Below the pieces are notes generated by a model that was given only the letters and a program-made list of their open reading frames with translations, was not told the DNA's origin and did not search any database. The translations under genes were made by a program, and so were the position numbers. From Nereocystis luetkeana (taxonomy: Eukaryota; Sar; Phaeophyceae; Laminariales; Laminariaceae), in contig JARUPZ010000015.1 in assembly GCA_031213475.1 (NCBI GenBank), positions 9,948,528 to 10,012,527 on the forward strand: a DNA stretch of 64,000 bases. The letters are read 5' to 3'. Positions 1 through 62,879 of the stretch are shown here, piece by piece. Within the stretch, counting starts at the first letter, position 1; every line of letters begins with the position of its first letter.

Positions 1-425
1 TCAAAGCATAGCATAGCATAACATAGCATAAAAAACATACAAGTAACATAATATAACGTGACGTAACGAAACGTACTACCAGGTATTACATGACGTAACG
101 TAACGTAATATGACATGACATGATATTATATGACATGACATAGTACGCGTTCGTTTTGGTCTTGGTGGTGGTTGATTGCTTGTTGATGTGCGTGTTTCGG
201 TTAGGATAGGAGGTTGCACTTGTTTGTTCTTGCTTTGCTTGTGCGTGTGCTTGTACATTTGCTTGGGGTTAAATTTGAGGGCGTGCTCGTGAATGTTCTG
301 GCGCTTTTGCTCGTGCTTTAGCTTGTGGATGTGTTTTGAGTACGTCCTTGTAATTTTCCTGTCCCTTTTTATTATGTTTCGTCCTTGTGTTCTTGCGCTG
401 TTGTGCATGCTCTTGTGCTTGGCAG
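1..425. other. Intron end upstream of first visible SIN3 exon
   Basis: No exon recognised. Positions 1-150 are a degenerate simple repeat built from words such as ACGTAACG, GCATA and ATGACATG. Positions 160-420 are GT/TG-rich on the + strand and end in the GCAG acceptor at 422-425. One TACCAGGTA word lies at 77-85. Long open frames on the - strand here are compositional. Confidence 0.5.
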
Positions 426-578
426 GGTGAAGCTGGAATCGACCGCGCCGCACTTTGTGCAGCCACACGTCACCCTGGTCTATCCTCCGGCGGAGGTACG
501 ACGAGACCTGCACCAGCTGCTCACTCACGCCGTGAAATGTTCCTCCAACTTCCTGGCTGACAAGGCCAAGATGCTCCG
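426..578 (+). CDS. SIN3: SIN3 exon a (PHVTLVYPP block)
   Basis: A 153-bp exon with acceptor GGCAG and donor GTGAGT, phase 2 on both sides. It encodes a block around QPHVTLVYPPAEVRRDL followed by HQLLTHAVK and a basic tail ending KAKMLR. It matches the animal SIN3 segment [26 protein letters not shown]...-KYKIKQIM in order and spacing. This segment lies just downstream of the HDAC-interaction domain. The GC-rich exon stands out from AT/GT-rich flanks. Confidence 0.75.
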
Positions 579-3500
579 GTGAGTTTCGCCGTCAGACAAT
601 TGAGCAGCGCGTCAAGTTTCATTTTGTATTTATTGTAGGACCTTTATGGTTGGAAGTACGGTCGTTTTAGTACTGCTCCCTCTATAGTGCCGGTTGACTA
701 GTGTCGGCTGCCCTCCACGAGATGGGGCCTTTGAAATCGTTCGGCCCAGATGTATATTGACCAGTGTGTTAGTGTGCGGAGTAGTGCCTGTTGCCGGTAT
801 GATATAGTGACGGTATGGCTGACTGGCTGGCTGGCGCATATCATACCGACACTGCTGTAGAGCGACTCTTGCTGTGTAGCGACATCAAAATGGCAAGCGT
901 GGTCGTCTTAACGGCCGTTCTCTTATTTATGTGGGCGTGCCATACGTGTAGTGTCGTGAGACAGCGTGTGTGCTCAGTGCGTTGAAGTAAGGGTACCCCA
1001 GCAATAGGGTATAGGGTACGTACGCTACCCCAACAAGCCGGATAATCAGCAGTTTGTTTTCTTCTTTTGTTTCCCTCTGGAATACTAAAGGGGTTGATAG
1101 TTGACTATTTATAGAAGTATTTATATTTACCTATACCCTCCTGCCCATACTAGTGTTATATGTATACCCTCCCTAGTATGGGTATATATCGTATTGTTGT
1201 AGTACAAATATGAGCCTTTGTTTGTGTGCCCATACTAGTGTAATACGTGTACCCCCCCTAGTATGGGTATTTATCGTATCGTTATAGTTCAAATATAGGT
1301 CTTTGTTTGTTGTACCCCCGTCCCCCCTCCCCCCCCCCCCCCGACCCCTCCGTATCTGCCGTAATAGTGTCATTCTTACTCCGCACATGGGAATTGATCG
1401 TATCACGTACCTGGTAGTGTTCAAGGTAAGACACCCAAGAGTTAGTTACATGGTACTGCCATTGCTGCCTCAGGAAGTGGCTACACCGGGAATTAAATGA
1501 ACTCATTGAAGCTGTCATCGATATGCGAGTCCGCCTCACAAGCGGTTCTTAGTGGGATGCAGCTCACCCTTCATGCGACTCGCCGGACACCTCATGGCGC
1601 TTCACGCTAGGTGCAAGCAATGTCTGACTGGTCGGTGAAAACCCGACATGCTCCGTCCCGCCATTGTAGGGATGCGAGGGTCTATGGTCATACGACTACG
1701 GCCATGCACGAGATCGAGTATATCTCTCCTATCGAGTACACCCCCCCCCCCCCCCGCCCCCCTCCTCTCTTCAAACGCCTTCCCCACATTCCCCGGCGAG
1801 CGGGATTTTGTTCATGCTTTGCACTACAGGACTCTGCCGATTCTACGCGCGTGGATGGGAGGTTTGTTGTCCTGGGAAGAGAAGAATTCTGACCGTAGGA
1901 TATTGAAGCCGCCCAACGACCCTATTGGAAGGGGGGTGGTGGGGACTCCAACCCCTGGCCTTGCACAGGTGGAGACGAGCGGTTTGGTGAGCCTATCCCA
2001 AGTACCTGATGCGATAAGTACAGTGAATACCCCGACCCAAGAGAGGTGTGGTACAGGCCGAAAATGCCACTCTTCACTTTTCATAACCGTCTCTCTAATC
2101 CACAGTGCAGAGGATAGTAATAGTGGAGAACGTATGCGTAGGCGGCTCCGGGCAATTCAGCCTCCCTCAACTGTACTATTCGCTTAGTCGAGGTGAAGTC
2201 TCCTAAAAAGGGGTAGCCACTATGGCACCCTGGCAAACTCTTGTTTCGGCTGTAAATTGGCTGGACTTGAAGGCTAGATGGTACAGTATAGAGTACCAGT
2301 ACCTGGTATTAAATACTAGTGTTAATAGTGGGGTGCCGAATTATGCCAACTAACTGACTTGAATATTGTTTCTCGTGCAAAACCACAACCCTACACTAGT
2401 TGCAGGTAGCTTGTCCCGAATAGAGGGGTTGCAGTATTTCCTATACTATTCATTGAGGGGTTATCCGTGGTGCTACAGTTTAGTACCTGGTAGGTATCAA
2501 TTAAAAACAATCCTCGATTTATAAACGCGCCACTCATATGCAAAGACGCAGAACTCCCGTAGTTTACCGCACACGACTATTGAATAACTTGAATACCTAG
2601 CCAAAACTATTCTAATCGAGGCACGGTAATACCCAACGAACCAACCAATCAACTGATAATTTGTTGCCGAAATGTAGTCAGCCAAGTCACAGCCCTGGTG
2701 ACTAGGAGTAGTAGACTATTTACTTTAAAAAACACCAATAGTACCCCAGTGATACGAAGCACCACAGGGTATTAAATAAAAATAGTGCATCCTGTCTGGT
2801 GGGTACGGCACTGCTGTCCAATATGACTATTTTTACCGCTCAAGTGATCTGCTGGAAGGGTTCTCGGGTCCTCGAGTACTGATCCCGCGACTGAGAAGCA
2901 GGTCTGCCTCGTGGGTATAGACTATGACTCTGTACGTAGTCACAATACATGACGAATCTGCCGGGTGTGAATTCGACGAAAAGCACGATTGATTCCTGTT
3001 CACACAGCTGTCAATCAGCAGGATTTCACAGCTACTAACTAGTTAACCAAAAGAAGAGAACCAAAAATAACGGAGGGAGAGGAGAGGGGAGGGGTGGCGA
3101 GGGGGTGGGGGGGGGGGAAGACACCGCCTCCGCATGTCGACTGTGATTGGATCGGGAGGTTTGGCCAAACGTTCAGCAACCTGTCTGGTACCAATAGCAT
3201 CGACCTCAATCATCCCTTAATACCTTTGTCCCATTCCTCCTTTTTATTTTTATTTTCCCACGTTGATTGTGTTTTGTGTTGTCTTCTTCCTCCAGGTTCT
3301 GTTGAGGACAGGGCAGGCACGCGTGACGGCAGTGACAAGGGGCCCGGCCCCGATCCCCTCACCTGGACGGGCTGTCCCGCCCGGTCCGGTCATCTCTATG
3401 GAGGGGGTAATGGTTTCCACGGGGGAACGCGTCGCTGTCGATGCCAAGGAGATTCTTCTGGTGAGTGAGGGAGTTGTAGAGGGAAGTGGGAGGGCGGGGG

Positions 3501-6500
3501 GGGTGTACTCATGTGTTATCTGCGCATCCCTTTCAACACGGAGCAGGGGGGGGGTACTCATGCAATGCATGATCGTAATTATATGATCGTAGACCCCTAC
3601 AGTACCGGGACGGAGCACGTCTGGCGTTTACCGACCAGGCAGGCCTTGCTTGAGGTAGAGGCTGTAGAAGGAAGAGGGGGGGGGGTCTGCCGTTGAACAC
3701 GGATGGCGTTCTTCTGGGGATGGGGCGAGTTGTAGAGGGAAGCGGGAGGGGTTTTTGCTGCGGCACGTGCATGAAAAAGGTTGGTATTCTGGGATATTTT
3801 CCTGCCGTTCAATACTACAGGAGAGGGCCTGGAAAGAGTGCCCGGTACTTTATACGATAGTACGAACGGGCTTTGGTTTTGTGGGGAAATGGTCGAATCC
3901 TGTGTTGTGCGTGTTCGTGGTGACGTTGGTGTGGTATCAACCGAGTCACTCACGCGTGTTGTGCCCGGTATTTAGTGTTATTCGGTACCTGGTGGCGGGG
4001 CTGCTTAGCTTGATTGCACGCATGCCTTAGGACCTCGTGTGCGTGCCATTGAAGAGTATTTCGGTACATGAGCTGTACGTGGGCGAGCGCAAGCTAAGCT
4101 ATCACCTGCAACTCCCCCCCTCCCCCTTTTCCTTCCTCCCTCCCTCCCTCCCTCCCTCCCTCCCTCCCTCCCTCCCGTGCCCTCCCTCTACAACCTCCTC
4201 CCGAAGGTTCGTCCGGAAGAAGCGGCATGGGTCCCGCCTTCCCCCCTCAGCGAAGAAGGAGGTGGAGATGGAGGCGGTGGTAGTTCGGGTACAGGGAGTG
4301 GGGCGGAGGGTTCGGAAAGCGAGATGGATGTGGATGGAGGGGTGGACTTGGGACCGTTGCTCCCAAGCTCCGAGCGCATGATGCTGTGCACCCAGGTAGC
4401 TATGAGGGAGAAGGGGGGTGGGGGGGGTTGTGGGAGGGCGGGGGGCGGGGGGTTACGCTTACTTTTTCAGGAACTGCGTCGTTCGAGTAGTGTGGTTGGT
4501 GTTTGGTGGGGGTGAGGGCGGTGGTGCTGTCAGTATTGGTGTCAGTGTTGGTGATTGCATGGGACCATGGCGCCGTCGTCAGGTTGTTCGTCTGCAAGAC
4601 CCTGATCATGTATATTTTTTGTTGTTGCAGACTTCCCACGGACCGTGAAACAAATTTACGACGTCAGGTTCTTCGTCTGCAGGACCCGGGGTTAGTTGTT
4701 GCAGACAATCCACGGACCGTGAAACAAATTTACGATAGGAAATCCAATTCTTGGCGCTTCTCGTTTGGTCTCGTTTGGCGTATGACGATATGGCATGTCA
4801 CTGTTGGTCATTTGTGATTGGCGACAGCAGTGTACCCATTATAACATTTTGAGACCACCCACTGACAAGCTACTATTTAATGGTAGTAAATATAGTATTA
4901 TCCCTACAGTGATATGGTCTTATCTCATACCTGGTACCACTGAAAAAATGACGCCATACTAGTTCCAAGCACTTGTTTCGGTCTCTAGCCGATATACCAG
5001 GTACGTGGATTTGTCGTGTGCTCTCCGGTATAGTCTCATGCCGGATTGGTTTAAAATGGGTACCAGGTATGGCTTTAAACCCCGATATACGTTTTTAATA
5101 GTGATGATTGCTGATTCGAGACTGGTAACTGACGATCGAGGATTCGCGATTGCCTCGTAGAGGTTGAAGATTTACGATTGACGAGCTGCTCCACGAACAC
5201 CGCTCGTTCATTCGTGGGTTCGTTGGTGAATATGTCTGTTAATTCGATTCCTTTGTGCGTTGGTTCGATTCCTCAACCGATACCGTCAGCTTTGTCCGCT
5301 GGGTCGTCCTCGTTTGTTCATTCTTTACGGCTTTGGGGATGGAAACAGGAGCTGTACGTGCTGATGAGGCTTCACCACGTGCTCTGCGAGCGTCTTGGCA
5401 AGGCCGTGTCCCTTGCAGAGGAAGCGAAGGCCCGCAAGGCCAGCCAGGTCAGAGGAAAATCACACCGATGTAGACTACTTCTAGATAATAAATTGTAGAC
5501 GACTTCTATATATTAGACGTAGGTTATAAATCAGAAGTAGTATATATTGGATAGTACCCTGTCACCTAGAGGCGTGAGAAGAAGCGTCTGGTGTACCATG
5601 TACATTTATAGAATAAAAACAACAGCTGTGAGATCGAGGATTTCGTCGAAACTTTTCTTTGCAAGCTGTGTGTGTGATACTCGATTGCGCGTTCTTCGGG
5701 TTTTATATGGCCTCATGCAGGAAATACAGTCCGTACAAGAGGAAAACTAAAATTGACGCTGCAGAGTTCAAGGAGTGGGTGTGTCTATTTGGGAAACCAA
5801 ATAAATGTATATTTCGAGGTTGCACGTAGCTTGCCACGAGGGGGATTTTTTTCCGGTGTGTATTTCATACCTGGTAATATTGCTTTATAAATTTGTAATG
5901 GGATACCATCATCACTATTAATACTACCGAGCAGCATTACATAATAAGGAGATCTGCCTGTATTTGATATATAAGACAAATTAATGGGGCGTGCGAGCAG
6001 CAAGCAATATATCACCCACGCCCGAGGCCGCCACAGCAGTCAGGGTAGGGGAGCACAGTGGGATACGACTAGGAGAGGCATGATCAGACCCTCCAGGGTC
6101 AGCAACGAAACATATTGCAGGCTGACCTACTACGTGATAGGAGCTGCGTGAGGGTGTAGAATCTACACGACGTCGTCGTTGTACCTCGTCGTATATATGT
6201 GTCTTTTGGTCTTTCCACAAACGACGAAGCTGTTTTTCACCACGAAGAAAGCCGGTAGCCCCGGTGGTTCAGTCGTACCCTCAAACGCTACAAGCAGGAG
6301 GTGCTGGAAATCGAATCCCATGTGGGTCGGATTTTTTAGTAAAATTTGCAAAATATACAAAAGGCGAATCGACTGCTGACGGCGCCTATTACTAGTAGCA
6401 TGGGTAGGCGCAATTCGATGCGAGTCGACGAGGGAAGGGAAGGTCGAAGTCTTCTCGTGATACAAATGCAAGGCACGAACTGTAGAGGGGAGGAGAGAAA

Positions 6501-9500: not shown

Positions 9501-12500
9501 CAATAATTCCGGTACGTTGCACGATACTGTATCATCAGGTACGTGCCGGTACAACAACGAACACTCCTCATGCTGCCTCTGTCAATACATACCTGGCATA
9601 TATATGATACCTGGTACGATACAGCAACAGGAGAGGAGACGATGCCGGTCGAAATATATACCTGTCTCGTTGGGCACTTTTCTGATCTTTTTTGGCATTC
9701 ATCCCATTTATTGACTTCGCCCTTGTCCCTCTCTCTACATCCTCCCTAGTCGTAACTCAGATTCGGGGTCACACAGCAGGTTCTCTTCCCCCTTCCCCAC
9801 TACGGTTCGTCGCTTGCATTTTTATCGTGAGAACAAATCAGCCAATTCTTCCCTCGTCGACTTGTCGCGTCGGATTCGGTGCCACCTGGAATCCAATTAC
9901 ATGTTGGTTTATCTGCGTACCACGACATTTCGTATTTCGGCAATCAACATGCAGCATACATCCTGTGACGACTTACTGTATCGTAGATATCATAGCTATT
10001 AATAATAGGATATCGACCGAATATACAAATGGTTTTGGAGGGCCTTTAACAATCTGGGAGAAGGGATCTTTAGGTTGGTAGGCTGTTCGGGTGTTTTGGT
10101 TCCTGTTGGGATCAAGGTACGGGCGAAGACCCAACCCAACCCCTGACTCTAACCCTAACCCTAACCCTAACCCTGACCCTAACCCTGATCCCAAACCGCA
10201 GCCAAAACGGGCCAAAACTCGCCATAAACGCGGCTACGCCGAGTCTGCATCGAACCAGGAAATTTCTCTGTTGCGGACGACGATTCCGAAGTGCAGACCA
10301 CGCTACACATTTTTCAAGTAAAAACATCCATAAAGATCCCTTCTCCCAAACTGCTAAACCTACTCTGGTTTTGTAGAGGAAATATCATGGAATATGATAG
10401 CACACCACGTGCGAGAGAGACGTACTACTGCTGTAGAGCAGGCCAAGCAACAGGGTAGGCTAAACTGCGTCGACGTCGGTGATTATTGTTCTTGTTAGGA
10501 CGGACGAAGGTGTTTATCGATGACAAGCGCGCATGTCGTTCTTTGACATTCGAGCCTGTCTGTCGTTGTTGTGGTTGTTGTTCTCACGTTCACTCATCGC
10601 CACAATACAATGCAGTCCGTGGTCGCAGGACAGGGTCCAATAATTCTGGAGTAGAAGAAAATACCTTGGCGAAAGAAAACAAGCTAATAATAGTACACAA
10701 TGTCATGATAACTGAAGCACCTCTACACCTCAGAGAAAAAATAAAAAGTGAGGTTCGCGCACGTACGTATCAGATACATGCGGTACGCTGTACAAGTCGC
10801 GACAGAAAACGAGAAGACCACATACTACCCAGAAAAAATAGACAGGATGAAAATAACAACTCGACGTCGAAAAATCGAAACCGTAATAAAAAATCACAAC
10901 TCCAACAGGAAAGAGAGGGGGAAAAGTTCATTTCAGGCAAGGAAACAACAGAAAGCAAGAAATCAAGAAAGGAAACACACAAGAGAATGCGCATAGTTTT
11001 GCAGATTGCAGGCTCGCACGCTACTCGAGGGATGTAGAACAGTGATGAGAACAAAAAGACAAACATACGAACTGCACCACCAAGGACCATTATCGGAGAG
11101 GATGTTTTCCATAATTTCCAAAGTTTGGAAATAATTGAATATATGTACCAATATACGGAGGCGTTCTGTCTCTATTCACGAAATTCTATAGAAGCAAAAA
11201 AAAACAAGTTCGTTAAATTTCACACATTTGAAAAAAAACAGGAAAATATGGAAGATTAAAAATTGCGCCAACAAAAAATCGAAAATTTGGGAAAAAAAAC
11301 TCTCCGATAAGAAGGACCATAAGAACACCAGGGAAGGAAAAAACAAATTATCAGACAAGAAACCAAAAGGAAGACGAAGCAAAGCAAACAGCAAAAAACG
11401 AAAGAAAAGCAGAGAGCAAAAAAGCAAAACGGAATACCCTGGTATACAAACAGAGACACAAGGAGGGACAAACGGCAAAGAAGGAAAGATGAAAAGAAGG
11501 GACAAACACGGGACAAACACGGGCGGGGGGGAAATGTTAATACGAAAGGCAGGAAGTGGTGCCTGCAGACACGCAAAGTTGCTCGGGTGGCACCATGCTA
11601 GTTAATTGGGTCCCAAAGAAGATAGCGCATCATGACAATGATGACCATACCCATGCTTCAGTCAGTTGGGCAGACCGCCCCCCCCCCCCCCCTCCCCCCT
11701 ATCCCTCATCGTCCCCCTTTCGCCCCCCCCCCCTCTTCCTTGCCATTCTGCGCACGTGCGTTGGCGTGAACGGCTGCAGTCGTGGTTGCAACCATCCTGT
11801 GCCGTTCTGCCGATGTCTTCTCATCCTTAGGCCATTTCCGTTTGAAAACCTCCGCCCCTTCCTCGACCCGTCGGAGCCATGTGCCGGCTTTCTGTGCTGC
11901 CTCGTGCCACCCTCCGAGCTTGATGCCAAACACCTTGAGGTCCTCCTCAAGGTACCTCATCCAGTCCCACTCCTGTCCTCCGGAGTAGTCCTCACCCCCG
12001 ACCACCTCCCCAAACATCACCCTCTTCGGCAGACTCTCCTCTCACATGCGTGTCACATACCTGGTAGCCCGCAAACCACAGCCTACGTCTGCGTACCGGC
12101 GTCTCAACGCTCTCAGAGTTTGTCCTTAGAAGTGCGCTAGGATACGATGGAATATGGTCTTCGCGCTTTCGTTTTCGCCAGCCGATGCATCGGAGGAGCA
12201 TCTTGTAGTGGACCTCCCGTAGCCTGCCGTAACCCGTCTTGCTCGGGCTCCAAGTAACGCAACCGTAGAACGACGTTTCGATCACCTCGGCTCTCAGCAT
12301 CCTCAACTTCAGGCGTAGGCGCATACCCGGGCGGTCATAGATTTCTATCTTATACCGCCCGAAGCATATGGGGACGTGGGTGTGTGTTTCAGTTTTCATT
12401 GAGGTCTGTCACAGTTTATTTATTTTTAGCTGTCGAATAATATCACATCATATCGCAATGGCGACCAACCACAGCAAACGAACGCATTATGCGCAGCATT

Positions 12501-40565: not shown

Positions 40566-42666
40566 TTTTCATTTATTTTCGACAGAGCAAAACCATTACC
40601 ACTACCTACACAGCAGCATTTACAGCACTAGTGTTATTAATAGTAAAGCATGTTGAATACTACGTAAGTCTTGACATCAACCAAAGCTCGGAGGACATCT
40701 ATCAATAACATGCTGCTGCATTACAGCAGTAAGTAGTAGTTCCCAGCGACAGCAGCTGGTTGTTGATACAATAATATTAATATCATCACTATTTTACTAT
40801 GAACATCACAAAAATCTATGTGTCCGAAATTATAATTCACGATTTAATACTAATAATAAATATATGATGTAAAGCTCATTATGCTTCCGAACAGAGTGGC
40901 AGACGATGCAAAACATCCCCAAATCCCGCGCTATATCGTACCTGGTGCCAGGTAGATAACGAGGGGTATATATGCCAGAGGCTACAAAACATCCCCAAAT
41001 TCCGCACTACATCCTAGATAACAAGTTTGGGCCGTCACAAGCATGCTGCATTATAGGGTGCGATGGTTGACAAAAGGTGGTTGTCAGCTTGGTTTCGGAT
41101 GAAATTGTCCTAGGCTGAATGTTATGGGAGCCGAACCGGACAACAAAACTGGCATACACCTCTGTTATTCGAATGGCCCAGATTCGTACCAGGTATATGA
41201 TATCGAGTTTCGTATTTTCCTTTGAGTTGGGAGTACGTTGGAGGGAGGGGTTACCGCAAATATGTTTGAAATCGGCCGACACACAACAACAGTACACGGC
41301 AGGGACGCATCCTGTTTTGGGACCCGACGGGCAACATGGGACTTGCTTTCGCAGACTCGAGCTTCCTGGACTGGGTTAGCTTTCTTCGGCAACGGGTCCC
41401 AAGCTTGGCAGTCTGCTGCAGCATGCGTTGATATTGCAGAAAGCTCAAGAGAACACAACGGCAACCGCCAAGAGCATGCGGTGTAGTCGGTTGTTCCCTA
41501 GCACCGGAGCTTGGAGTCTCTAGCTACCGCTATATATATGCCGCGATACCGTGTCAGAGATGCCGAGAGAGTATACAGCGGTAGTAGCGATGATATGTAC
41601 AAGAGTATTAGGCCCGCCACGTTATATACTATGCCTCCTCCTGTGTTGGGTGCAACACCAGTTTTGGCCAGCTCTTGGACCGTACAGGACTGTTGTCTGG
41701 TTTCGTCTGGCCAGGCCATTTCCGATCGAAGTACAGAAAATGTTTTAGAGATTTCTGTTTTTTGGCCATCGATAAGTTTCGATAATTCGGATCTGGCGCG
41801 AACTTTTCCTGGATCTCTCTACAAACCCTGTTTTGTTTTCCGGTTTCAGCTCCTATAAGAGTCACAGCCTCATCGTGAAATTGTGACACTGCCGTTTTTT
41901 ACGTTTTCAATATATTTGCACGCTGACCCTAAGGCTTTTTGCTGTTTTACCTGGATGCCAGGATAGTTAATATGTGGGTGCTGCGGGTTCAGGTGGCGTA
42001 GCTTTTTGGGGTGTTGAGTGTGGGCGCTGCGAGCTATTATATATAGGGGGCTGCCATAGTTAACCCCCCCCCCCCATTTGTGCCGGTGGCGTTCAGAGGT
42101 TATATAATGTACAGTTCGGTGCCCTCTAGTAACTTCTGTATGGGTGGGTATTTCACTTTGTCACCACACGCGAGTTGCTGACTGCTGTTCGGTGTTCGAT
42201 AGTCTTCGGGGGGGGGGCACCGATGCAAAGTCGAACGAGAAATAAGCGTTAAATTACACAGCGGCTGTTTATTTCGGTGCCACGCAGTGCATCAGCGCGA
42301 GACCCGTATAATTTTTTTGTTGACTCCTGTGATTCATGACCACGGTCCATACCGACTTGTTATATTGTGTAAAAAACCCTGCCAATATGGGTATCACTAT
42401 TATATACCAGGAAAACCTTACGTATATGTATCAGGTATACAATTGAGCCCGCCGAGCCTGCTGCACGTCCTCCATGCCTCAATAGATTTCGGAGATTGCT
42501 ACATTATACCAGAGGTGTATATTAGCCTTGTAGGACTACAATTAATTAGTGTAGGACTACAATTAAATAGTTGTAGCACTACACAAATACCAGGTACCAG
42601 GTATATGATACGCCTGGTATGGTATACTACCAGGCGGCAGGTGTACGATACTGCTGTACTGCTGTG

Positions 42667-43335: not shown

Positions 43336-43343
43336 TCCCTTAT

Positions 43344-45565: not shown

Positions 45566-46188
45566 GCGACGATTCTCAGTCACTGCTGTGATAAGCCTTG
45601 GAAAAAACTAAAACGAAGGAAACAAAAGAAAATAATAGTAGACATATAGAAGGTATATAGACTTGGTGTATGGGTTCCCTTCGTGCGGAGATTTCTTTTT
45701 TCAAGAATGTTTTGATTGATCAACATGAAAGCTCATGCTGCACATTGTCGGATGGCAAGCCTAATAATAATCATTAGTACGAGGAGACCGCTGTTGGACC
45801 CCTTGCCTGTCTGCCTCCGTATGCTAGAACCAGTATACTCGAACACCAACAGAGGCCTTGTCGTGCCTAAGATGACCAATCTTCCAACGGTACGAGGTAT
45901 AGTTTACAGCATTTTTTACTTACTCTGTACCAGGTAGGTATGATGCTGCGGGCTTTCGTGAACGAAGGTGAAGGAGTATCGTAGTGTTGCCTTCGATAAA
46001 CTAAGACTGCTGTTGGTGCGGTTCAATATAAAATGTATCTTCCCCGCGATTATGCTATTTTTTGTCTAACACAGTGGTCCGGTCCGGGCCGCTCCTCGTC
46101 CCCACTGCTTGATGCCTGCAATCGCCTACCACTCGTAGACTATTAATATTCTACTATTAATAGTGTGCTACTACTATTAATATCGAAG

Positions 46189-49300: not shown

Positions 49301-52300
49301 TATACGTAAATTGTCAATAACCTGGAGTCCGGGCACCCCCCACAGGCGGGACAGATATACTGCCAGTAGATACTTTTAATAGAGCGGTACCGAACTGTAT
49401 AAAATGGTTGATACATGTTACCTGATACCTGGTATGTTTTGTGTTGAAGGAGGGAAAGTGGCAGCTGAAAAGGGGTGACGCGTGAAGTATTAATAGTAGA
49501 ATTGCGGGGTCATACACCCCCAACTTGTAAGAAAAAAAGGGATTCCTTGAGCGCTCTCCTTCGCCCTGGTGCCGTCGGTCCCATCCATTAACATGCGAAC
49601 GAAAAAATGAGTGAGCGTCTTGCCAGCAAGTCTGAAAATAATTTGAGCCAGGTTGGCGCATGCGCGGGCACCTCCCGCGGACGTGATTTCCCTACCCCCT
49701 TGGTTGGCTGAAACAGGCAGGGGTTTACAACACTTGGTTGGCTTCCGATTACCTGCCAATCTTGGACCAGTACGGACATGCGTAGAGCCGCACGCGAGCG
49801 TCGACGCGCCGCGGCAAGGCCTCTCTTGTATTTACCCGGCATATTTTCAGCTGATCGTCAATAAAAAAGGCGTGCAAGGCTGGCGGGGTGGGGGGGGGGG
49901 GGGGTACTCATTTGTTTCTTGCGTTAGTCATTTGACCATTGACCACGCATCCCTTTCGAGTCGGAGAACCGTTGTTACTCGTAACAGAGACACCTTAAAT
50001 AATTGGCCGCTCGCTACGTTGTTTCCATATATTACATAGAAAAGTTTAGCTGATCTTATCCCCTTCCTGTTTGGCCGCCTGTGGCTACCATCTATCTCCT
50101 AGGATAGCGATCGTTTTCTCGCTGTTCTGTAGTGTATCAAACTCCTCCATGTCACATTCGTCTACTTCCCTCATCTCCTATTCTAACACATCCCGTTCCT
50201 CCTTGCATGTTTCACATTCTCCTACAATGTGAGTTCCACTCTCTATTTCTTTGCCACGCGGGCACATCTATGCATCTCTTTCCTCCTCCTCCCGGTTACT
50301 GGTATACCGCTTTCTTTTTTCTGGCATGCCCAAGTCATCTACACGAAAGCACAGCTTCAGCGTTTACGCGAAGTCCATTGGGCCTTGCAAATACGTTTTC
50401 ATTTATATTCCTTGCCTCAATCCCCCGTATATCTCCAAGTGTTTTCCTGCTTCTACCTTGTTTCGTAGCGCTAGCCTTTCCCTTCGTTCTATCATTTCTG
50501 CTAATTTTGCCTTGTACAACCCAAACTTCCCGGCGGACATCACCTCTTCTTGGTTTCCCCCTATATCCTTCCATACTTTCTCAACTACGCTACCCCACCT
50601 TATGGCGCCCTTTTGTTACTTTCTCCCATACCGCTCTATCAACTATGGCTGGCAATCTCTTCTTTGCATATTCCTTACTTTCTATTGCCGTTTCAACTTT
50701 TCTCATATCTCAATTTGTGTGGAGTGAGTGCGTTCCCAGTTCTGCTCTTACTACTGTATTACTATTAATAGTCGTACTTGAGCATCTTAGGATTTGTTTA
50801 GCTGCGGTCATCTGAGGGGGGGTGGGGGGGGTACTCGATAGGAGAGATGTACTCGATCTCATGCATGGCCGTAGTCGAATGACCATAGACCCTCGCATCC
50901 CTACAATGCCGGGACGGAGCATGTCGGGTTTTCACCGACCAGGCAGACATTGCTTGCACCAAGCGCGAAGCGCCGTGAGGTGTCTGGCGAGTCGCATGAA
51001 GGTTGAGCTGCATCCTACTAAGAACCGCTTGTGAGGCGGACTTGCATATGGACGACAGCTTCAATGAGTTGATTTAATTTCCGGTGTAGGCATTTCCAGA
51101 GACAGAAATGGGAGTACTAGGTAACTACCTCTTGGGTGCCTTACCATGAACACTACGTGATACCTGGTACGATTTTTCCCACGTGTGCGGAGTAAAGGTT
51201 ATTTACCTCGCACAAGTGATCAAACTCGACAACCAGCTGTGGGCGACCGCCAAAAAAAAAAAAAAAAAAAACGGTACCCTGGTTGTCTAGCTCACGTAGT
51301 AAGCGGCATGTTTTACAGTGTCGTTGCCAACCGACGCCAACCCAACCTATATAAAATAGGGAGGGGGGGGGGGCGGGGGGGAGTACTCGATAGGAGAGAT
51401 GTGCTCGATCTCATGCATGGCCGTAGTCGTATGACCATAGACCCTCGCATCCCTACAATGCCGGGACGGAGCATGTCGGGTTTTCACCGACCAGGCAGAC
51501 ATTGCTTGTACCAAGCGCGAAGCGCCGTGAGGTGTCTGGCGAGTCGCATGAAGCGTGAGCTGCATCCTACTAAGAATCGCTTTTGAGGCGGACTTGCGTA
51601 TGGACGGCAGCTTCAATGAGTTGATTTAATTTCCGGTGTAGGCATTTCCAAAGACAGCAATGGGAGTACTATGTAACTGCCTCTTGGGTGCCTTACCTTC
51701 AACACTACCAGGTAGGTACGTGATACGGTCATTCCCATTTGTGCGGACTAAAGGTCCTTTACCTCGCACAAATAATCAAACTCGACAACCAGCTGTGGGC
51801 GACCGCCAAAAAAAAACAAATAACGATACACTGGTTGTCTAGCTCACGTAGTGAGCGGCTTGTTTTACAGTGTCGTTGCCAACCGACGCCAACCCAACCT
51901 ATAAAAAATAGGGACCCCCGATTAGGGAATATAGGCCGTACCTGCAGATGTTTTTTTTTTGTTGTATTCTTTCCATCCCATTTTTTGTCTTCGCCCTTTT
52001 TTAATCCTGCCCCATTCTAGTCGTACCTCAAATCCGGGGTCGTTAAGTAAGCCCTTCTCGCTCCTCCCCACACTATGATATGCGCCTTCCATTTTTATCG
52101 CGAGAAGAAGTTAGCAAATTCTTTCATGGTCGACTCGCGTCGAAGTGTGATATATATTATAAAGATTTTTGCCAAAATCAGGTATACCTCGCCATTTTTC
52201 GGCCAAAATCGGTTACCAGGTACATGCTGAAACCAAGTACGAAACACACCCCAGGAGCCCTGTCATTGGCCAGGCTGGCATCGTAACTGATTTTGGCTCG

Positions 52301-55300
52301 AAAAGGCCAAGGTATACCTGTCTTTTCTGCTCTGTCTAGCTTTCAACTGATTTCGGCCAACTTTGAACCAATCGGAGAGCTCATATGTGCACTGCTGTTG
52401 TTTCTCTCTGTATAAATGCGTCTGCCCTCCCTCGATTGAAACTATTATGTTTCACGTATAACCTCTGTACTCGTACGTTGTACGTGAAAGTACGTGTTCA
52501 CATACGCGAACATGCGTCTGCTGGTTTCACTTTTTTTTTCTTTTTTGGGGTGTGCGACGTGTCACAGTTATTAAATACCTGGTAGTTGTTGTTATGTGTC
52601 CTATTAATATTGCTCTGTGTTGTTTTCTATGGCAACAGCGGTCTATAAAGCACCATGGTCGTTGTCTGCACCACCCCGCGTCGAGGTGGTCTCGGGTTTG
52701 GTACGGCAAGATAATTTCGTGCCGAGCAGGCGGTTCCGCGAGGACGGTCTAGACGATTCAAAGCTGTCATCGGGGGAGGGCGCCAGTGTAAATACTCTTC
52801 TTGGCGCCCCCGCCGTGGCAAAACAAACGAGGACTCTTAATAATGACTATATGCAGGTCCAAGTGAAGCGCGTGGTATCTACACCCCAACGAAAACTAAA
52901 CGATTTAGATTTTGGAGGCCATGCGGCACTCTTCGTTTATGAACCGACTTTCATGGACAGAACACTGCTCGTGGCGCGCGTTTTTTACTTAGTTTTAGTA
53001 TATACTGATTTTGGCTCAAACGGATCAGGTACAACTGATTTTGGCACTTGCCCTATATTATACCTGGTATATACTACCAGGTATATATTACATGAACGTT
53101 TGAAGAAAAGTAGCACATAAGACCTATGCCAATGGGACAGCGAAATTTCAATGAAAAGTTCGAATTTCAAAGATACCCGCCAAAAGTTTTCAGTACACGC
53201 TTCCTATGGGCCACGTAAAAAAAAAAAGTTCCTGGAACTTTTGGAAAAGCCCGAAAAAAGTAAATCTGGGGCCGATGTTGGGCCAACATTGGCTTGAGAA
53301 AAACTCAGGCCGATCTTTGGTTCGAAGCGGCGAGATTCCGAGTCCTCGACAGACATCGATCAACAAAACAAACGATTGCGTCATGAATTCTGAACGGAGT
53401 GCGCTCGTTAGGGGCTCCGACCCACCCTAAGGTCACCGTCTTCACACCATGGCCGGTTTTATGTGGCGGGAGCTGGCTGACCAGGCGTATGATGAAAAAA
53501 CATTTGGCCGCTGGTTTGCACCAAACAGAAGACAACACTTCTCCATCCGTCTCGAATGGCAAAAAATAGTTTTTTTCAGGTTTGGGAGGATACCGTAGGA
53601 CGCCGCCGGCAAGCTCTTGCCCCCTAGACCATGGATCCACCTGATATGTTCGAGGCCGTCATCTATATTCGTTGGCCTCGCCAGATACCTAGCGGGTTGG
53701 CCGTGGGCTGAGTCTCTGTCGAGATCGAGCGTCGATCGTCGCACGAGCTGGTTTCGATCACCGTGTTGACAATTTGCAACCATAAAAATCAAATTGCGCC
53801 GCCTGCAGCCGTTTGGGGGGAAAAAGTAAATTAATCAAACATTTTTCTCTTTTTTCCCCACAGCGGCGGTACGAGAAAGTTTTCGGCTGTTTTTTTAAAG
53901 CAATATATTTGAAAAAAACTTTTGAACTTGGCTTTTCCATCGGCATAGGTCTAAGTACTTATCTATCAGAACTCTGTTTCTTAACGCCCTTCTCCCACTT
54001 GGCAACCTGGTCCCACCCGCACCTGAGCCCTCCAAAGTAAACCTGGATATATTAACGCTAGTAGCTAGCCCCCATCAGGGGCTGACAAACGCTCTGACCC
54101 CACTCATCCATACTTTCTCTGCGGGATGAGGGTTTTTAGTAGGCCCTGCCGGCGGCTAACGATAGATCCAGGCTCAGTTTAGAAGGCTTAGACCCGACGG
54201 GATAGGTCTGCCTAGTTGGAGAAGGGCGCTTAGAACTGGGATCAGGGTGTCAAGCGGGGGCGAGTTACTTAGAAACAGATTTCTGGTATAATGTTACCTG
54301 TAAAGCTATGTGAGAGTACGGCCTATATCCCCCTACCGGGGGGTACGTTGTTTTCCTGGAGGAAGGGGGCGTATTGGTAAAGGGGGGGGGGGTAGATATT
54401 GAGGTGTATATTCGTTCAGTAATTATTTGTTGCGCTGGGGAAGGATATGTCATGCTACTGTTGTTGTGATTGCTGTGTGTATTTATATCTTACATCCGAG
54501 CCATCAGGTACAGCAGTATCGAGGTACTTTATTGTACTGTCCCCTCGTCTTTCAAAGTTTGTACCTACAAGATTCGAAGAGGGCGTGTATTCCTTTGATG
54601 TCATCCATTTTATCATCATGTTTTCAGAACGGGCTCACTCCTAGGTTTGGCGGCAAGGGGAGGGGGTTGTGCTTCCTTGATACGCGTGTCAAGGAGCAAC
54701 CTGGTTAGCGCGGAGTCATGTACCTGGTAGTCAATAGTCGATAGCCTAGCTGTACCTGTCGTTGAGTTTAGAGGCTGTCAACTCATTATAACTATCCGAA
54801 CAAAATATTTCAGAGACCGCCCACTGCAAGGAAATATCTGGATAATTGATTTATAGTATATTTTAAACGTAACGGTAATTGCCCGGACCTTTGATTATAA
54901 AGGAGTAACAATTTGGAAGCGTTAACGCTTGATTTGCGGGTGCACTGTCCGAATAAGCGACTGAGAGTTTTTGTTTGCATTTGCCCGAGAAAACGGCTTC
55001 GGAGGCGGTCTAGTGATGTGTACAAGTTGGAATTACCGCAGCGATTGATATCGGACAGATGCTGATTTTGATTCTCAATTTTGTCCGGGCAAGTGTACTC
55101 AAATGCTGTCTATTGTCAGCGATTCGATATATCGATCATGGTTTGGGAGGTTGCCCACACATCACCTGGCGTCCTGCGAGCGCACTTCTCGTAATTTGAC
55201 CGTTGTGCCTGGGCCCCTGAGAGAACACTCTTTCTTGAATGTACCTGGCAACGCAGACTGTCCGTAACCCCTATCCCCGGCCTGCTCTGCTACACCGTAT

Positions 55301-58300: not shown

Positions 58301-61300
58301 CTCGACCCTCCCCTCTCAAATGTTTCGCCGCCCTGTTTTCTTTCCAGCGCAACCGGACTCAACCAAGGTGCAACTGCTTCTGCAGCCGACATCCGCAACA
58401 GACAGACGTTATCCTCTTGGGGCGCCTCCGCCAGGCCGCTGGCCGTTACCACTGCAACTGCCGGGGCGAGGCCTACCTCCCGCGGCGGTGCGGTCGGTAG
58501 TAGCCGCGGCCGCGGCCCAAGTGTTGGCGGCGGAGGTGGTCGCGGCGCCGGCAGGGTTGATGGTGGCAGGGGGGGTGGTGGCGTTGCGGAGACGGGCCGT
58601 CGGCGGGAGGCGGACGAGGCGGCTGTGCGGCAGGCCGGAAAAGCTGAGAAGGACGTGGGGGAGCGCCCGTGCCAGGCGTTGACGGTATTGGCCAGGTGGG
58701 TGCATGTAGGTGGTGTATGTAGGCGGGCAGTAGATGGGAACTACAGTACCAGGTAGATAGCAAGCAGGCAGACAAGCAAGCAGTAGACAGGCAGTAGGTC
58801 GAAAGTAGGTAGAAAGTCGGCAGGACGTAGGCAGGGTAGGTGGGCAGTATGAAGGCAGTAGGCATAAGGTATATAGGCAGTATGTCGACAACATGTGGAA
58901 ATGGGCAGTAGAAATGTATACGTAGAAAGCAAGTGTCACAGGTAGGCAGTAGGCAGACTAGACCGATTACAAGAAGTCCGGCATGCGGTAGGTAGACAAT
59001 AGGTGTCGTAGTTTTGCTGCACGATTCGCTTGTGTGTTTGAAGGTTTAATTGATCTGTTTACTGCGGCAGCCGATCAACAAATCAATATAGCAATCAATC
59101 GATGAATCAATCAACAAGCCAATCAAACAAGCGATCGCCGGATCAAACGTTCACTGCCGCCCGCAATTATCAGGCCTCCTCGCGTCGTTACCGCTTCCAC
59201 CTTGCTGTCGTCACCGGCGCTGGCGCAAGTACCACCTTGTCCCTCCCACACCGTTCCCGTCACGAAGAAAGACGAACGCGGTGGTGGTGGTGATGGTGGT
59301 GGTGGTGGTGATGGTAGCGGCGGAGGTGGCGCAGTGGCTGCTGAGGCTTCCCCGACACGCCCGGAGCGGGAGGACGAGGTGATCGCTAATTCGACCGCTG
59401 CCGCCCGTAGCGCTAGGGAGGCCCTCCTACTTACGGAGGCGGGGGAAGGGAGGGAAAGAGGGAGGGGGCTGGGAAGCACGAGGGTGGTGACCGCGCGAGG
59501 AGAAGGGGGGAAACTGGGGGGAGAGGAGAGTGGTGGCGATGAGTTGTCCGTCGAGCAACATGGCCCCGGCGCAGTCTTGACGGTCGACGGCTCGAAGAGC
59601 AGCAACCATGTCGGCGGCCCAAGTGGTGGTGGCAGCGGCGACGGTGGCTTTGGCGGTGGTGCAGTCGGTGACGGTAATGGGGGGAGGGAAGACCGAGGTT
59701 TCCAAGAGCTTTGGAAGGCTCTTGACGAATTGGACGCAGCTTTGGAAGAGGACTCCCCCCTGGGGATGATTGACGACTGGCTTGGTGCTCCTGGAGTTGC
59801 CGATGCCGACGCTGGCTTGTGCGGATATGGTGGCAGGGAGAGGGATGGGCGGGAGCGTGCTGGCGCGGATTCTGCGGTGGGGCTCGATGCTCCCGCGGGC
59901 GCGGACGGTTCGTGTGCTGCAGCCGCCGCTGCAGCCGCCACCGTTTATGGATCGGGTGTCGGCCACGGCGGTGTCGGCAACGGCGGCCGAGGGAGTGGGT
60001 CTGGTGCGGAAGGGAAGAGTGGGCCGCTGGCGGTAACCGAAGTACAAGCGCCGGTGGTGAACGAGCGGCGGCAACTTGATGCTCAGAGCCCAGAGCTGCG
60101 GGCGGAAGAGATGATGGCCACGCTGACAGTGGAAGACACACGGGTGAGGGATATATAATATATTGATGTCATATATACCTGCCGCCTGAGGTACCTGGTA
60201 CCCGAGTGCTATCAACAACACTGCAACGGTTCTCGAGTTGTCGTGTTGCTTTTTATCTTTTTACAAACGAGGCGTCGCAAGGTCGTGGCATCAATTCGTT
60301 TAGACAATTCGAAGTTTCCTGAATTTTATTTCCTGGATTCTGATAAATTCGGCGCTGAAAAGCAAATGCGCGCCTGATCATGACGTTCTACTTTAGTTTG
60401 CACTGGCCTTACCCCTAGCATGCGCACCGTACCACCGATCTCTCAAAATTGATTAGACTCTCGGCCCATCTTGGACAAAATGGTTAATGTTAATAGTGTA
60501 CTTAACAGTACATACAAACTACTCGTTGCAGCTTATTCCCGACGTACAAAATGCTCATTTACAGCTCTTTTTCGAGAAAATTACCAAGCCGTCGGGATAG
60601 ATAGGGTTTTGGGTTGCTGCGGCTGCGGCTACTGCTGCTACTGCTGCCACTGTTACTGTTACTACTGCTACTATTTATACTCCTACGGGGTAGCAGACCG
60701 TAAGTATTGCAATCATAACCAAGCATAATGTGTGAACAGAGGGGGATACCCACTTTCGGCTCCATCGTGGGTTCTGATTACGATCACTACCTGGTATATA
60801 TTAATACTATTACAGGGGACAACAGCAAATAGGAACACATATTGTTGGCAAATATATATTTTTGTGTGTACCATAGGTCCTATTTATTACATTCCACCGC
60901 AATAAGTATTTCTATGGCCTAATGCCGTTACATCTACTGCTACGGGGGGGCATAAATCATCGGAACCAAATGTCGTGCCTAAACATATCGTAGGGGGATA
61001 CAAGGTGTCTGGGCCCATGGTGGGTTCTGATCACTATGTATCACTATGCACTCCTGAAATAAGTATGTATTAGTACTAGTATGTGTTACTAGGATCCCCC
61101 GTGAGAGCGGTCGGTATCGATGGTCTTGCTGCTCCTTGAGGTATGGCGAGCACAAAGATATGAATGTACCACTACTGCTGCTGTACACACTCAATCAATC
61201 AATTAGTGTGTCTCGAATTAGCGGTAATCCTCCCGAAAATGCCGATAAATGAGACGGCAAATGTTTCCCACTCCTATTCTAATTAGTTTGCCCCCAGAAA

Positions 61301-62879
61301 GTACCAGTACGGGCTGGGCCAGCCAAGACCCTGTCGATTCAGGAGGTCGGCTATGCAGCGCCCAATTTTACGCAGTTAGACATGAAATTTTGGCCCGGTA
61401 TTGTTCATGCATCTACTGAGACGTGTCGTTCCGGGCTTTTTTGTTTTTGCTTTTTTTTGTCCGAGAGATACAACCGAAAACTAATAAAAAAAATAGAAAC
61501 ACGATTGAAACTCCTCTGATGAAACGAAAACAAAAAAAAGCCAGGGAAAACTTGATTTCGCACGGGCAAAACGAATACGGTGTTGAAACTTTAGATCGAA
61601 AATCGCCACGTTGAGCGCTGCATCGCATCAAAAACATTTTTTTCGTTACACGTGATTTAAGTATTGGGCATTGTTTTTAGCCCGATCTGGTGATGGGCAA
61701 CGAGTTGGGCAACTAAACTGATGTCGATCTTCTCCTTGTATCCCCAGTACCGTCTCCACCAAGTTTCGCCTTGATCGGGAACAATGATGTTATTTCGGAA
61801 TGTAGTGTTAAAAGTTGGTGTTTTTGAGTTTTCGCCTATATCTCATCGAGATCGAGTCGAATTATCAAGATGAAATCATTTTTTATATACCTGGTACCTG
61901 GTATCTATTTTTTTCGCACATTCACTGATATGTCAGCGTCTGTGCCTTCAAATTTCAAGTCCCAATTGTCAGTGGTTCACGAGATACGACCCCATGATTG
62001 GTTGCGCCCTTCATGGCTGGCCCAGCTCGGAGGTGTTTCGGGTTGAAGCAATCACGCCCCGCTACTGTATTTACGGGTGGCTGTCCCTAACACAGTAACT
62101 GGATGTGCTTGATTGGGGATTGTTGTACTGTACCGTCGGTCTGTTTTAACTGTATGTCTGCCTGCATTTGTATCTGTCTGTCTGTCTAGCTGTTTGCCGA
62201 TCGGTTTGAATAGTCTGTTCGCCTGCCTGCGTTTGTATCTTCCTGTCTAGCAGTCTACTCTTCTGTTTGTCTGTCTGATGTCTAGCGGCCAGTCCATCCG
62301 TTTACAGTTTTTTGTCTGCCTTGTTTCTCTCATTGTCCCGCTATTTCTTATTCTCTTCTCCTTCTCCTCTCACTAGTATGTCTCTCTCCCCCCCCCCCAC
62401 ACCTTCCTGTTTCGCGTGCGCATGCGTCAACGTAAACCTGCCTCTACCGTCTCACCACACAGGGCGCGTCACCCTCAAGCTGTGTTGTGACGCCGTCAGT
62501 GCCGAGGCCGAGCTCCTCCAGCAGGCCCGACACGAGTTCCTCGCTCTGCGAAGGTCATTCTCGAGCTAAATCCACCGCCGTTGCCGCTGCCAACGGGTGG
62601 GGTGGCGATGGCGGTGTTGCCGGTGCTGGTTCTGATGGTGCTGGTGCTGATGTTGATGCTAATGGTCGTGACGGCGGCGGAGATTTTGCTACTGAGGCTT
62701 CCCTGACCCACCCGGAGCGGGGGGACAAGGTGCCCGCTGATGCGACTGCTGCCGCCTGTAGCGCCAGAGATGAGGAGCGCTCGGGCGAAGGGCTTGCGTC
62801 TGCGCCGTACGACGGAGACAAGAAGGGGGCGGCGGAGGGGCAGGGTAAGGGGGGCCACATGCTGCACAGCACATCCGAG
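46189..62879 (+). CDS. Gly-rich repetitive protein, multi-exon (3' part of the SIN3 gene or a second gene)
   Basis: Proposed exons: 46189-46381, 55360-56090, 56508-57038, 57439-57924, 58348-58695, 59174-60143 and 62463-62879, continuing past the window at 63837. All junctions are phase-compatible (0, 0/2, then 2-2, 2-2, 2-2, 2/0, 0). The product is low-complexity: a charged helical start, long Gly/Val runs encoded by GGTGGTGGC, and Ser/Ala/acidic segments. I recognise no domain. If the exon at 46189 is joined to exon l3, this is the SIN3 tail; the ATG at 46196 could equally start a separate gene. Function unknown. Confidence 0.5.
46721..46816. mobile_element. Hairpin MITE family H1, copy 2 (96 bp)
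   Basis: TAACCCTTTTAGGACCCCAG at the left, complement CGGTTCTAAAAGGGTTA at the right, with ACTCCCGT/ACGGGAGT inside. Confidence 0.8.
48385..48845 (+). repeat. Three-copy tandem repeat, period 177-192 bp
   Basis: TGAACAGACCTCGATGTTT recurs at 48401, 48578 and 48770, each followed by CGCCG-GGTGG-TCAGAA and preceded by CACCAGGATTTTGGT in copies 2 and 3. Confidence 0.85.
48987..49091. mobile_element. Hairpin MITE family H1, copy 3
   Basis: TAACCCTTTTCGGACCACAG at the left, complement CTGGAGTTCTGAAAGGGTT at the right; inner TATTGGGGACA and TGTCCCCAAAA pair. Confidence 0.8.
49895..49990 (+). repeat. R1-related head
   Basis: Poly-G, TACTCATTTGTTTCTTGC, GTCATTTGACCATTGACC and CGCATCCCTTTCGAGTC; same variant as 26.04-26.20 kb. 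Confidence 0.65.
50818..51360 (+). repeat. R1 dispersed repeat, full copy (tandem 1)
   Basis: Starts with poly-G and TACTCGATAGGAGAGATGTAC, ends near CCAACCCAACCTATATAAAA. Immediately followed by another copy in the same orientation. TACCTGGTA at 51161-51169 is absent from the matching site in the other copies. Confidence 0.85.
51361..51910 (+). repeat. R1 dispersed repeat, full copy (tandem 2)
   Basis: About 90% similar to the preceding copy by eye. Carries TACCAGGTAGGTA at 51706-51718 at a different TA from copy 1. Confidence 0.85.
51945..52150 (-). mobile_element. SINE-like element S2, truncated copy
   Basis: In antisense it matches the S2 tail and body: CTAGTCGTACCTCAAATCCGG, TTTTTATCGCGAGAAG and ATGGTCGACTCGCGTCG. 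Ends at the same region where the 9.7-kb copy is truncated. Confidence 0.65.
53977..54236. mobile_element. Fold-back element, about 260 bp
   Basis: Left end TTTCTTAACGCCCTTCTCCC and right end GGAGAAGGGCGCTTAGAAC are complementary. The inner arms also pair (GTAAACCTGGATATATTAACG with CGATAGATCCAGGCTCAGTTT), giving arms of roughly 105 bp around a short loop. No clear target duplication. Confidence 0.65.
55360..56090 (+). CDS. Gly-rich exon n1
   Basis: 731 bp, phase 0 in and 2 out; acceptor TTATTCCAG, donor GTGACC. It encodes AEAQRNEATRRQEAAKGLAN, a Gly/Asp/Arg segment, then about 100 residues of Gly/Val repeats, ending GRRYFWPSRRKTPFDR. The end matches that of the next two exons. Long Pro-rich frames on the other strand are shadows of the GGT repeats. 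Confidence 0.65.
56508..57038 (+). CDS. Gly-rich exon n2 (phase 2-2 module)
   Basis: 531 bp, a multiple of 3, from CTTTCCAG to the GTGACC donor. It encodes HGTTASAADISNRKTLASTG, SARPLAATTATAGAKS, a long Gly run, and GCAPGHGQAAEAGRPLFWTG. Symmetric phase lets copies be added without a frameshift. Confidence 0.65.
57439..57924 (+). CDS. Gly-rich exon n3 (phase 2-2 module)
   Basis: 486 bp, a multiple of 3; acceptor CTTTCCAG, donor GTTGGC. Same blocks as n2 (TTASTADIRNGQTLSSWG; GCAPGHGQAAEAGRRLFWTG) with a shorter Gly/Val run. Acceptor-to-acceptor distance from n2 is 931 bp. Confidence 0.65.
58348..58695 (+). CDS. Gly-rich exon n4 (phase 2-2 module, different end)
   Basis: 348 bp, a multiple of 3. 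Starts with the shared block (TASAADIRNRQTLSSWGASA), but after a short Gly run changes to a charged end ETGRRREADEAAVRQAGKAE and DVGERPCQALTVLA; donor GTGGGT. The array thus ends with an exon having a different 3' half. Confidence 0.65.
58735..58990 (+). repeat. GTAGGCAGTAGG-type minisatellite
   Basis: Irregular CAGTAGGCA, AAGTAGGTAGAAAG and GCAGGCAGAC words in the intron after n4; one TACCAGGTA at 58748. Confidence 0.7.
59174..60143 (+). CDS. Exon o1, Gly/Ser/acidic
   Basis: 970 bp, phase 2 in (fits n4) and 0 out; acceptor AATTATCAG, donor GTGAGG. It encodes a Gly run after VPVTKKDERGGGGDGG, then AAEASPTRPEREDEVIANST, a block around RGFQELWKALDELDAALEED that may form an amphipathic helix, WLGAPGVADADAG and an Ala/Gly end. 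No known domain. Portions recur in decayed form at 62.97-63.30 kb. Confidence 0.65.
60144..62462. other. 2.3-kb intron
   Basis: Contains a short duplicated segment (GGGGGATAC ... GGTGGGTTCTGAT near 60745 and 60993), a possible TIR element at 61307-62027, a CTGT-rich tract at 62150-62290 and a CTCTCC-rich acceptor tract. No gene seen. Confidence 0.5.
61307..62027. mobile_element. Possible TIR element, about 0.72 kb
   Basis: Left end ACGGGCTGGGCCAGCCAAGA and right end TCATGGCTGGCCCAGCTCGG are inverted with a few mismatches. A third similar end lies at 8034-8053 (ACGAGCTGGGCCAGCCATAA). No clear target duplication and no transposase. Confidence 0.35.
62463..62879 (+). CDS. Exon o2, related to o1
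   Basis: 417 bp, phase 0 on both sides; acceptor CACCACACAG, donor GTGAGC. It encodes RPDTSSSLCEGHSRAKSTAV, a Gly/Asp/Ala run, then ATEASLTHPERGDKVPADAT, parallel to AAEASPTRPEREDEVIANST of o1. An alternative donor GTAAGG at 62845 would change phase. Confidence 0.6.

Follow-up and report, generated by a model that had tools for sequence, protein, structure and literature searches.

The question raised by the stretch of DNA studied here (64,000 nucleotides of the brown alga Nereocystis luetkeana, GenBank assembly GCA_031213475.1, contig JARUPZ010000015.1, positions 9,948,528 to 10,012,527 of the forward strand; hereafter the window) is why one palindromic word of nine bases, TACCWGGTA with W being A or T, recurs in it so often. 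A first-pass annotation, made from the letters alone, had put it at about 50 copies where about 0.5 would be expected by chance. The actual count is 48, i.e. 28 copies with a central T (TACCTGGTA) and 20 with a central A (TACCAGGTA), against a chance expectation of 0.44 in a dinucleotide model and 0.71 in a trinucleotide model. Overall, our data describe a real, genome-wide and fairly recent set of 7-bp insertions, which are best read as excision scars with a 5-nt stagger; for brevity, the word is called a scar throughout.

Seven base pairs gained at TA

Among words of the form TA-N5-TA in the window, TACCWGGTA ranks first, the next one listed having 4 or 5 copies, and its 48 copies fall into 43 loci, 5 of them doubled. 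The annotation had correctly placed sites at 77, 1408, 12058, 24441, 47053, 47628, 51161 and 51706, and was right that those at 47053 and 47628 are doubled, but the third doubled site begins at 61888 rather than 61890, and five such sites exist instead of three. A genome-wide count, as that annotation had suggested, gives 182,395 copies of TACCWGGTA in the whole assembly (465,085,209 bp in 1,987 contigs) as against 1,744 of the reversed word, and this excess over controls in the window and genome-wide rules out chance or base composition as the source of the word. The scars are denser in the window (0.75 per kb) than in the genome on average (0.39 per kb). In a sample of 344 kb, consisting of the window and 28 stretches of 10 kb from elsewhere in the genome (these and some further loci are L-numbered below), we count 161 copies. 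They make up 142 loci (125 single, 15 double, 2 triple), which are spread unevenly, with 18 loci in the stretch L028 and zero in L021. Gaps between neighbours are shorter than 50 bp in 13 of 114 cases, as compared to 5.3 for randomly drawn TAs, which never exceeded 12 in 200 simulations. There are 140 words that are one base off, as compared to a control mean of 46, which translates into about 63% of scars being intact and a divergence of roughly 5% per site, i.e. a young record, although this estimate is rough because one of the control sets, CTACWGTAG, shows enrichment of its own and lifts the control mean.

That the word was truly inserted is shown by paralogues with and without it. Comparing the window with itself reveals 7-bp differences at 24441, at 12058 and in the R1 repeats, and the filled and empty pairs named in the annotation hold: 24441 is filled against two empty tandem paralogues, and the R1 copies at 1408, 51161 and 51706 are filled against an empty copy at 37591. 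For the pair that the annotation placed in a long interspersed nuclear element (LINE), the copy near 28660 indeed lacks the scar present at 12058, but reads AA instead of TA. CCWGG plus one TA was thus inserted at a pre-existing TA in several unrelated repeats, the unit gained being TACCWGG ahead of the existing TA, 7 bp in length (14 bp when doubled). Scars do not stand at the same position in all copies of a repeat, nor do these gains have another size: for the scar at L024:8898, 34 places match and all six of those listed are empty, and the scar at L012:8194 faces six of six empty copies. L037:9099 is filled and has eight matching places; of the six listed, five are empty and one carries a different 5-bp TA insertion. 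The doubled scar at L037:438 faces an empty paralogous site with 22 of 22 bases matching, and between L034 and L018 (about 89–96% identity) three scars are common, whereas two neighbouring scars of L034 are absent from L018.

An empty-site test across the 344-kb sample covered 140 loci, 26 of which are spanned by a paralogue. For 14 of these 26 a gapless, scar-free paralogue exists, with TA retained in 13 cases and AA in one; 13 of the 26 have a scar-bearing paralogue. Around the collapsed site, three of the 14 empties match at 22 of 22 bases, five at 20–21 and six at 17–19. These 14 are not all independent, as 1408, 51161 and L024:2187 belong to the R1 family, and L037:2961 and 5555 to another one. 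Control words gave empty sites at 0 of 10 spanned loci for GGWCC, no spanned locus among 4 for GAGC, zero loci for AATT, and one weak case (17 of 22) among 4 spanned loci for GTG. The centre of the 125 single scars is T in 67 and A in 58. The fill-in product TACCWGGCCWGGTA has 0 copies in the sample, and forms shorter by one base show only a modest excess (16 copies of TACCAGTA, 14 of TACTGGTA and 17 of TACCGGTA, where about 5.4 would be expected of each), so scar formation is precise. The gain of TACCWGGTA is therefore a true insertion with TA duplicated.

Target choice, doubled scars and a proposed excision mechanism

A palindromic insert that is ambiguous only at its centre and is flanked by a duplicated TA points to the staggered excision of a cut-and-paste element. 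We consider it likely that each TACCWGGTA was left behind by the excision of a cut-and-paste transposon that targets TA, has CCAGG or CCTGG ends and is cut out with a 5-nt stagger. Such a transposon would insert at TA, thereby duplicating it, and its ends would read 5'-CCAGG (or CCTGG). Excision would involve a cut of the non-transferred strand 5 nt within the element, so that each flank keeps a CCAGG overhang; the two overhangs could pair except for a central A:A (or T:T) and be sealed by end joining. Mismatch repair would then set the centre to A or T, with a net gain of TACCWGG, i.e. 7 bp. The resulting scar would offer a preferred half-site, such that old scars would be struck again and give rise to doubles. 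From the form of the scar we infer the element, its ends, the overhang with its polarity and the repair by end joining. The annotation had taken the same view: insertion, a central W consistent with repair of a 5-nt overhang, and repeated hits all stand, but the CCAGG/CCTGG-ended element that it postulated was found neither in the 344-kb sample nor at the five transposase loci examined.

The insertions share a symmetric target preference. When flanks are folded over both sides, T occupies position -1 in only 6% (mostly A or G is found), A is favoured at -3 and at -6, and either A or T at -7. Of 139 flanks on each side, 37 on the left and 42 on the right have a further TA at a distance of precisely 7 bp (28.4%, as compared to 7.5% for all TAs). 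Since the two TAs of a scar lie 7 bp apart, scar TAs are expected to be preferred about 7-fold, with the logo giving 7.1-fold for scar-flanking TAs. The doubled word in fact occurs 15,917 times genome-wide against 2 for its control, which is 14.8 times random. In the logo, built from 124 single scars, a TA beside CCAGG is 1.92-fold (1.40–2.68 when position -3 is bootstrapped) preferred over a TA beside CCTGG, so re-targeting predicts an excess of TACCAGGTACCTGGTA over TACCTGGTACCAGGTA by about that factor. Observed genome-wide are 4,522 copies of TACCAGGTACCTGGTA (AT order) and 1,856 of TACCTGGTACCAGGTA (TA order), a ratio of 2.44; this prediction was fixed before the counts, though a ratio of 14:5 was already known among the first 59 doubled places listed. 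The repeated hits at one place claimed in the annotation thus find support in the doubles and in an order asymmetry in the predicted direction, and we infer that doubling reflects re-targeting of old scars.

A palindromic word that is denser in some segments, such as L028, could also be a functional motif, e.g. a protein-binding site, maintained by selection. This is very improbable, since individual copies of dispersed repeats gained the word by exact insertion at TA, with a target preference that lies outside the word itself, and since it forms thousands of doubles; as the sole cause, such a motif is refuted by the filled and empty pairs.

The search for a source element

Excision by a transposon raises the question of where that transposon is. 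Of the 10-base sequences on the inner side of 110 half-sites in the 344-kb sample (TACCWGG without a following TA), no more than two are found repeatedly, in two copies each, and one of these stems from repeats of the window itself (33155 and 33822). The CCWGG-ended ones among the TA-flanked inverted repeats listed (60, and 90 of 113) are all pairs involving whole scars; the remainder of the 90 of 113 listed belong to other families, e.g. a miniature inverted-repeat transposable element (MITE) with CGGGGGACCATAGT ends. This MITE is about 100 bp long with TTA beside its ends, has many copies (window 16895–16999, L017, L024, L027 and others) and is perhaps of Harbinger type.

At the protein level, a profile search of the genome with PF01359 (Transposase_1, mariner) gave 0 matches, but 14 control genomes were equally silent, so that absence is not established. 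PF13358 also gave 0 matches in the genome, a search that overlooked the protein at L038, which scores against DDE_3 with E = 2.9e-12. PF03184 (DDE_1, the domain of pogo/Fot1-like elements) yielded 46 matches, and CCWGG ends are present at none of the five loci examined (L038–L042): L038, L039 and L041 contain neither TACCWGG nor CCWGGTA, and L040 and L042 each have two whole scars near the transposase gene and no element ends. L038 harbours an element of about 4.3 kb (534–4799) with a 493-aa open Tc1/mariner-like transposase, ACGGAGGCTCATAATTAGTAGG ends (ACGGAGG) and no clear TA duplication. Its transposase has 7 full-length copies at 99–100% identity (L038 included), with partial or distant relatives among 70 matches, and by this near-identity the element was probably active recently. 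A DDE transposase of the Tc1/mariner superfamily thus occurs in the genome, a point in favour of the excision reading, and is not linked to CCWGG ends. About 0.36 Mb of 465 Mb was examined for elements, and a family of some hundreds of copies is easily missed at this scale. Two side observations concern these transposases: pieces of two L038-family copies lie in opposite orientation within 5 kb (G000 C2:20046601-20051427), and DDE_1 matches of identical score, with three TAG stops each, are found at L039 (C872), C2:7920664, C809, C1099 and C1378, four of the five sitting on contigs numbered above 800.

Several points weigh against excision by a CCWGG-ended transposon. Neither the half-sites nor the inverted repeats in the 344 kb sampled revealed such an element, nor did the five transposase loci. 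Footprints of Tc1/mariner elements have 2–4 nt between the TAs as against 5 nt here, and to our knowledge a 5-nt footprint is not a value described for this superfamily. The empty-site test has errors, as seen in the one of four GTG controls that passed and in the six of 14 empties with 17–19 matching bases. Moreover, the 7.1-fold preference derived from the logo is only half of the observed excess of doubles, the rest of which may be supplied by local clustering of scars. Finally, doubles with the same centre make up 59.9% (9,539 of 15,917) genome-wide and 13 of 15 in the sample, whereas independent repair predicts 50%; some doubles may be tandem copies generated by slippage, or repair outcomes may be correlated. 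This surplus above 50% is what would speak for a satellite-like or slippage expansion of the 7-bp unit as the origin of the entire set, which is nevertheless hardly credible, because the sample loci are overwhelmingly single (125 of 142, with only 2 triple), the asymmetry between AT and TA order stays unexplained and slippage is unlikely for single sites. Within the favoured reading, the excision scars might stem from outside Tc1/mariner, i.e. from another DDE superfamily that targets TA, ISL2EU-like and CMC-type elements being candidates. A stagger of 5 nt off the Tc1/mariner values and the lack of CCWGG ends in the Tc1/mariner-type element at L038 would fit, but there is nothing positive in favour of this possibility, which we regard as less likely than not.

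The closest likeness is to Sleeping Beauty, for which the literature describes a first nick 3 nt inside the element, 3-nt 3' overhangs and a footprint arising by non-homologous end joining (PMC7827188), given as TAG(T/A)CTA (PMC2874221). The two systems have in common a TA target with duplication, a short footprint and a central choice between A and T and, on the reading proposed here, a staggered cut inside the element. They differ in that 5 nt rather than 3 separate the TAs here, in the genome-wide abundance of the scars and in that their source element was not found. The inverted repeats of the mariner element Mos1 begin with CCAGG and its target is TA, both as proposed here, but its footprint is 3 nt rather than 5 nt long. 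Minos shares the TA target and leaves a footprint of its end bases, 4 nt, which differ from CCWGG. In the brown alga Ectocarpus, the main text of one study lists 17 Mariner-Tc1 families, consisting mostly of non-autonomous copies and including one autonomous family of 4.4 kb (PMC12477816), close in size to the element of about 4.3 kb at L038 with its DDE_3 transposase. The same text gives 113,475 transposable elements of all kinds in 200.2 Mb, as compared to 182,395 copies of one scar word in 465 Mb here, and contains the words 'footprint' and 'excision' 0 times each (PMC12477816). The titles and abstract openings listed in literature searches contain no report of such scars, and the papers listed for the two 9-mers are by title unrelated.

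Other insertions at TA and the loci in the window

CCWGG is not the only short insert bounded by TA. TA-TTAA-TA, which is also seen doubled, occurs 87 times in the 344-kb sample against 2.2 expected, and TATTAATA is found at 19 places in the window (e.g. 58156). Clean empty paralogues exist for L033:5394 (doubled) and L037:9352, both matching at 22 of 22 bases, and for L035:8342 (19 of 22); altogether, 15 of 27 spanned TTAA loci have an 'empty' paralogue, and several of these 15 are situated in AT- or CTA-microsatellites and carry no weight here. TA-TTAA-TA has the appearance of a second family of micro-insertions at TA. Empty paralogues also face TA-CCGG-TA at 32471 (22 of 22) and TA-CTCG-TA at 16912 (20 of 22), the fractions of spanned loci being 3/17 for CWG, 1/4 for CCGG and 1/9 for CGAG/CTCG. 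TA-CGAG-TA and TA-CTCG-TA, with four bases between the TAs as in the Minos footprint, are enriched, with 28 and 24 copies against about 6 expected each. That the CCGG insert is a CCWGG from which the mismatched centre was deleted is a guess. The CAGCAG word is enriched as well, yet 0 of its 5 spanned loci have an empty site. Strongly enriched TA-bounded words of the window are TACAGCAGTA/TACTGCTGTA at 10 places and TACTATTAATA at 8 (either strand), and in the family of L037:9099 the repeat copy L037:9249-9379 has a 5-bp insertion that yields TACAATA where other copies read TA or CA.

The coexistence of several TA-bounded inserts also bears on whether an element was ever present at the scars. 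An enzyme, for instance a transposase that has been domesticated or a polymerase that processes ends on a fixed template, could cut TA and add CCWGG plus TA directly, and more than 180,000 copies with no CCWGG-ended element in the regions searched would agree with this. Such direct insertion is improbable, however, as the W-only centre, the palindrome, the TA duplication and the symmetric target preference match the paired ends of a transposase substrate, and the coexisting inserts are better accommodated by several element families than by a single template. Improbable, too, is a variant in which a transposase system that cuts at TA, whether domesticated or host-borne, inserts or leaves CCWGG genome-wide and re-uses its own scars as preferred targets; if true, a 7-bp sequence would behave as a self-spreading genome-wide mark. 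In general, if no element exists, the insertions would represent a new kind of genome-wide micro-insertion. If, as we favour, they are excision scars of a transposon, the roughly 180,000 copies (some inherited by duplication) would constitute a record across the whole genome, its units lying below the usual length of repeat annotation. Studies of excision footprints commonly rest on assays that examine a handful of them. In this alga, a single genome would display which targets were chosen, where sites were struck again and how old the scars are, making it testable how often a cut-and-paste element moves while staying rare, and suggesting that such scars will account for many of the 7-bp indels that separate strains of the alga.

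Table 1. Scar loci of the window (W-centred word and its doubled form), in window coordinates.
Feature	Position	Basis
Scar, A centre	77..85	exact word
Scar, T centre, R1 repeat	1408..1416	empty paralogues 37508-37624 and L027
Scar	2300..2308	exact word
Scar	2484..2492	exact word
Scar	4928..4936	exact word
Scar	4995..5003	exact word
Scar	5061..5069	exact word
Scar	5868..5876	exact word
Scar	9608..9616	exact word
Scar in repeat copy (LINE in first-pass annotation)	12058..12066	paralogue near 28660 without scar, AA not TA
Scar	20631..20639	exact word
Scar in tandem unit (SIN3 in first-pass annotation)	24441..24449	two empty paralogous units
Scar	30394..30402	exact word
Scar	30428..30436	exact word
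Scar	31216..31224	exact word
Scar	31703..31711	exact word
Scar	36403..36411	paralogue comparison; outside the 14 gapless empty-site cases
Scar	37148..37156	exact word
Scar	38716..38724	exact word
Scar	38738..38746	exact word
Scar	38786..38794	exact word
Doubled scar (A,T)	39652..39667	exact word
Scar	39689..39697	exact word
Scar	41187..41195	exact word
Doubled scar (A,A)	42588..42603	exact word
Scar	45928..45936	exact word
Doubled scar (T,T)	47053..47068	exact word
Doubled scar (T,T)	47628..47643	exact word
Scar	47736..47744	exact word
Scar	47790..47798	exact word
Scar	48907..48915	exact word
Scar	49426..49434	exact word
Scar, R1 repeat, second TA of TACGTGATA	51161..51169	copies 37517-37670 and L027 without scar
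Scar, R1 repeat, first TA, then extra TAGG	51706..51714	paralogues; outside the 14 gapless cases
Scar	52214..52222	exact word
Scar	52576..52584	exact word
Scar	53061..53069	exact word
Scar	53075..53083	exact word
Scar	54721..54729	exact word
Scar	58747..58755	exact word
Scar	60192..60200	exact word
Scar	60788..60796	exact word
Doubled scar (T,T)	61888..61903	exact word

The loci of the window are collected in table 1. For the scar at 36403, the paralogue at 30864–31074 reads TACCCTGGTA, i.e. a scar with an extra C, and that in L027 reads CCTCCTACGAG, i.e. an empty site with an unrelated gap nearby. The extra TAGG beside the scar at 51706 is possibly an imprecise second scar. Viral contigs were considered as well and set aside: the doubled word occurs in nine stretches, eight of which have no further copy and one of which (L002) has one extra copy in 2.27 kb, which we read as chance, and a search of these viral-contig stretches for LINE reverse transcriptase matched one stretch, a relationship that is unconfirmed. 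Within the window, the scars at 30394 and 30428 fall into a stop-to-stop frame (29662–30465) bearing a reverse-transcriptase domain, and, as fits a brown-algal host, the sole named relatives of this frame among 120 listed of 2,666 are three from Ectocarpus sp., at 63–64% identity.

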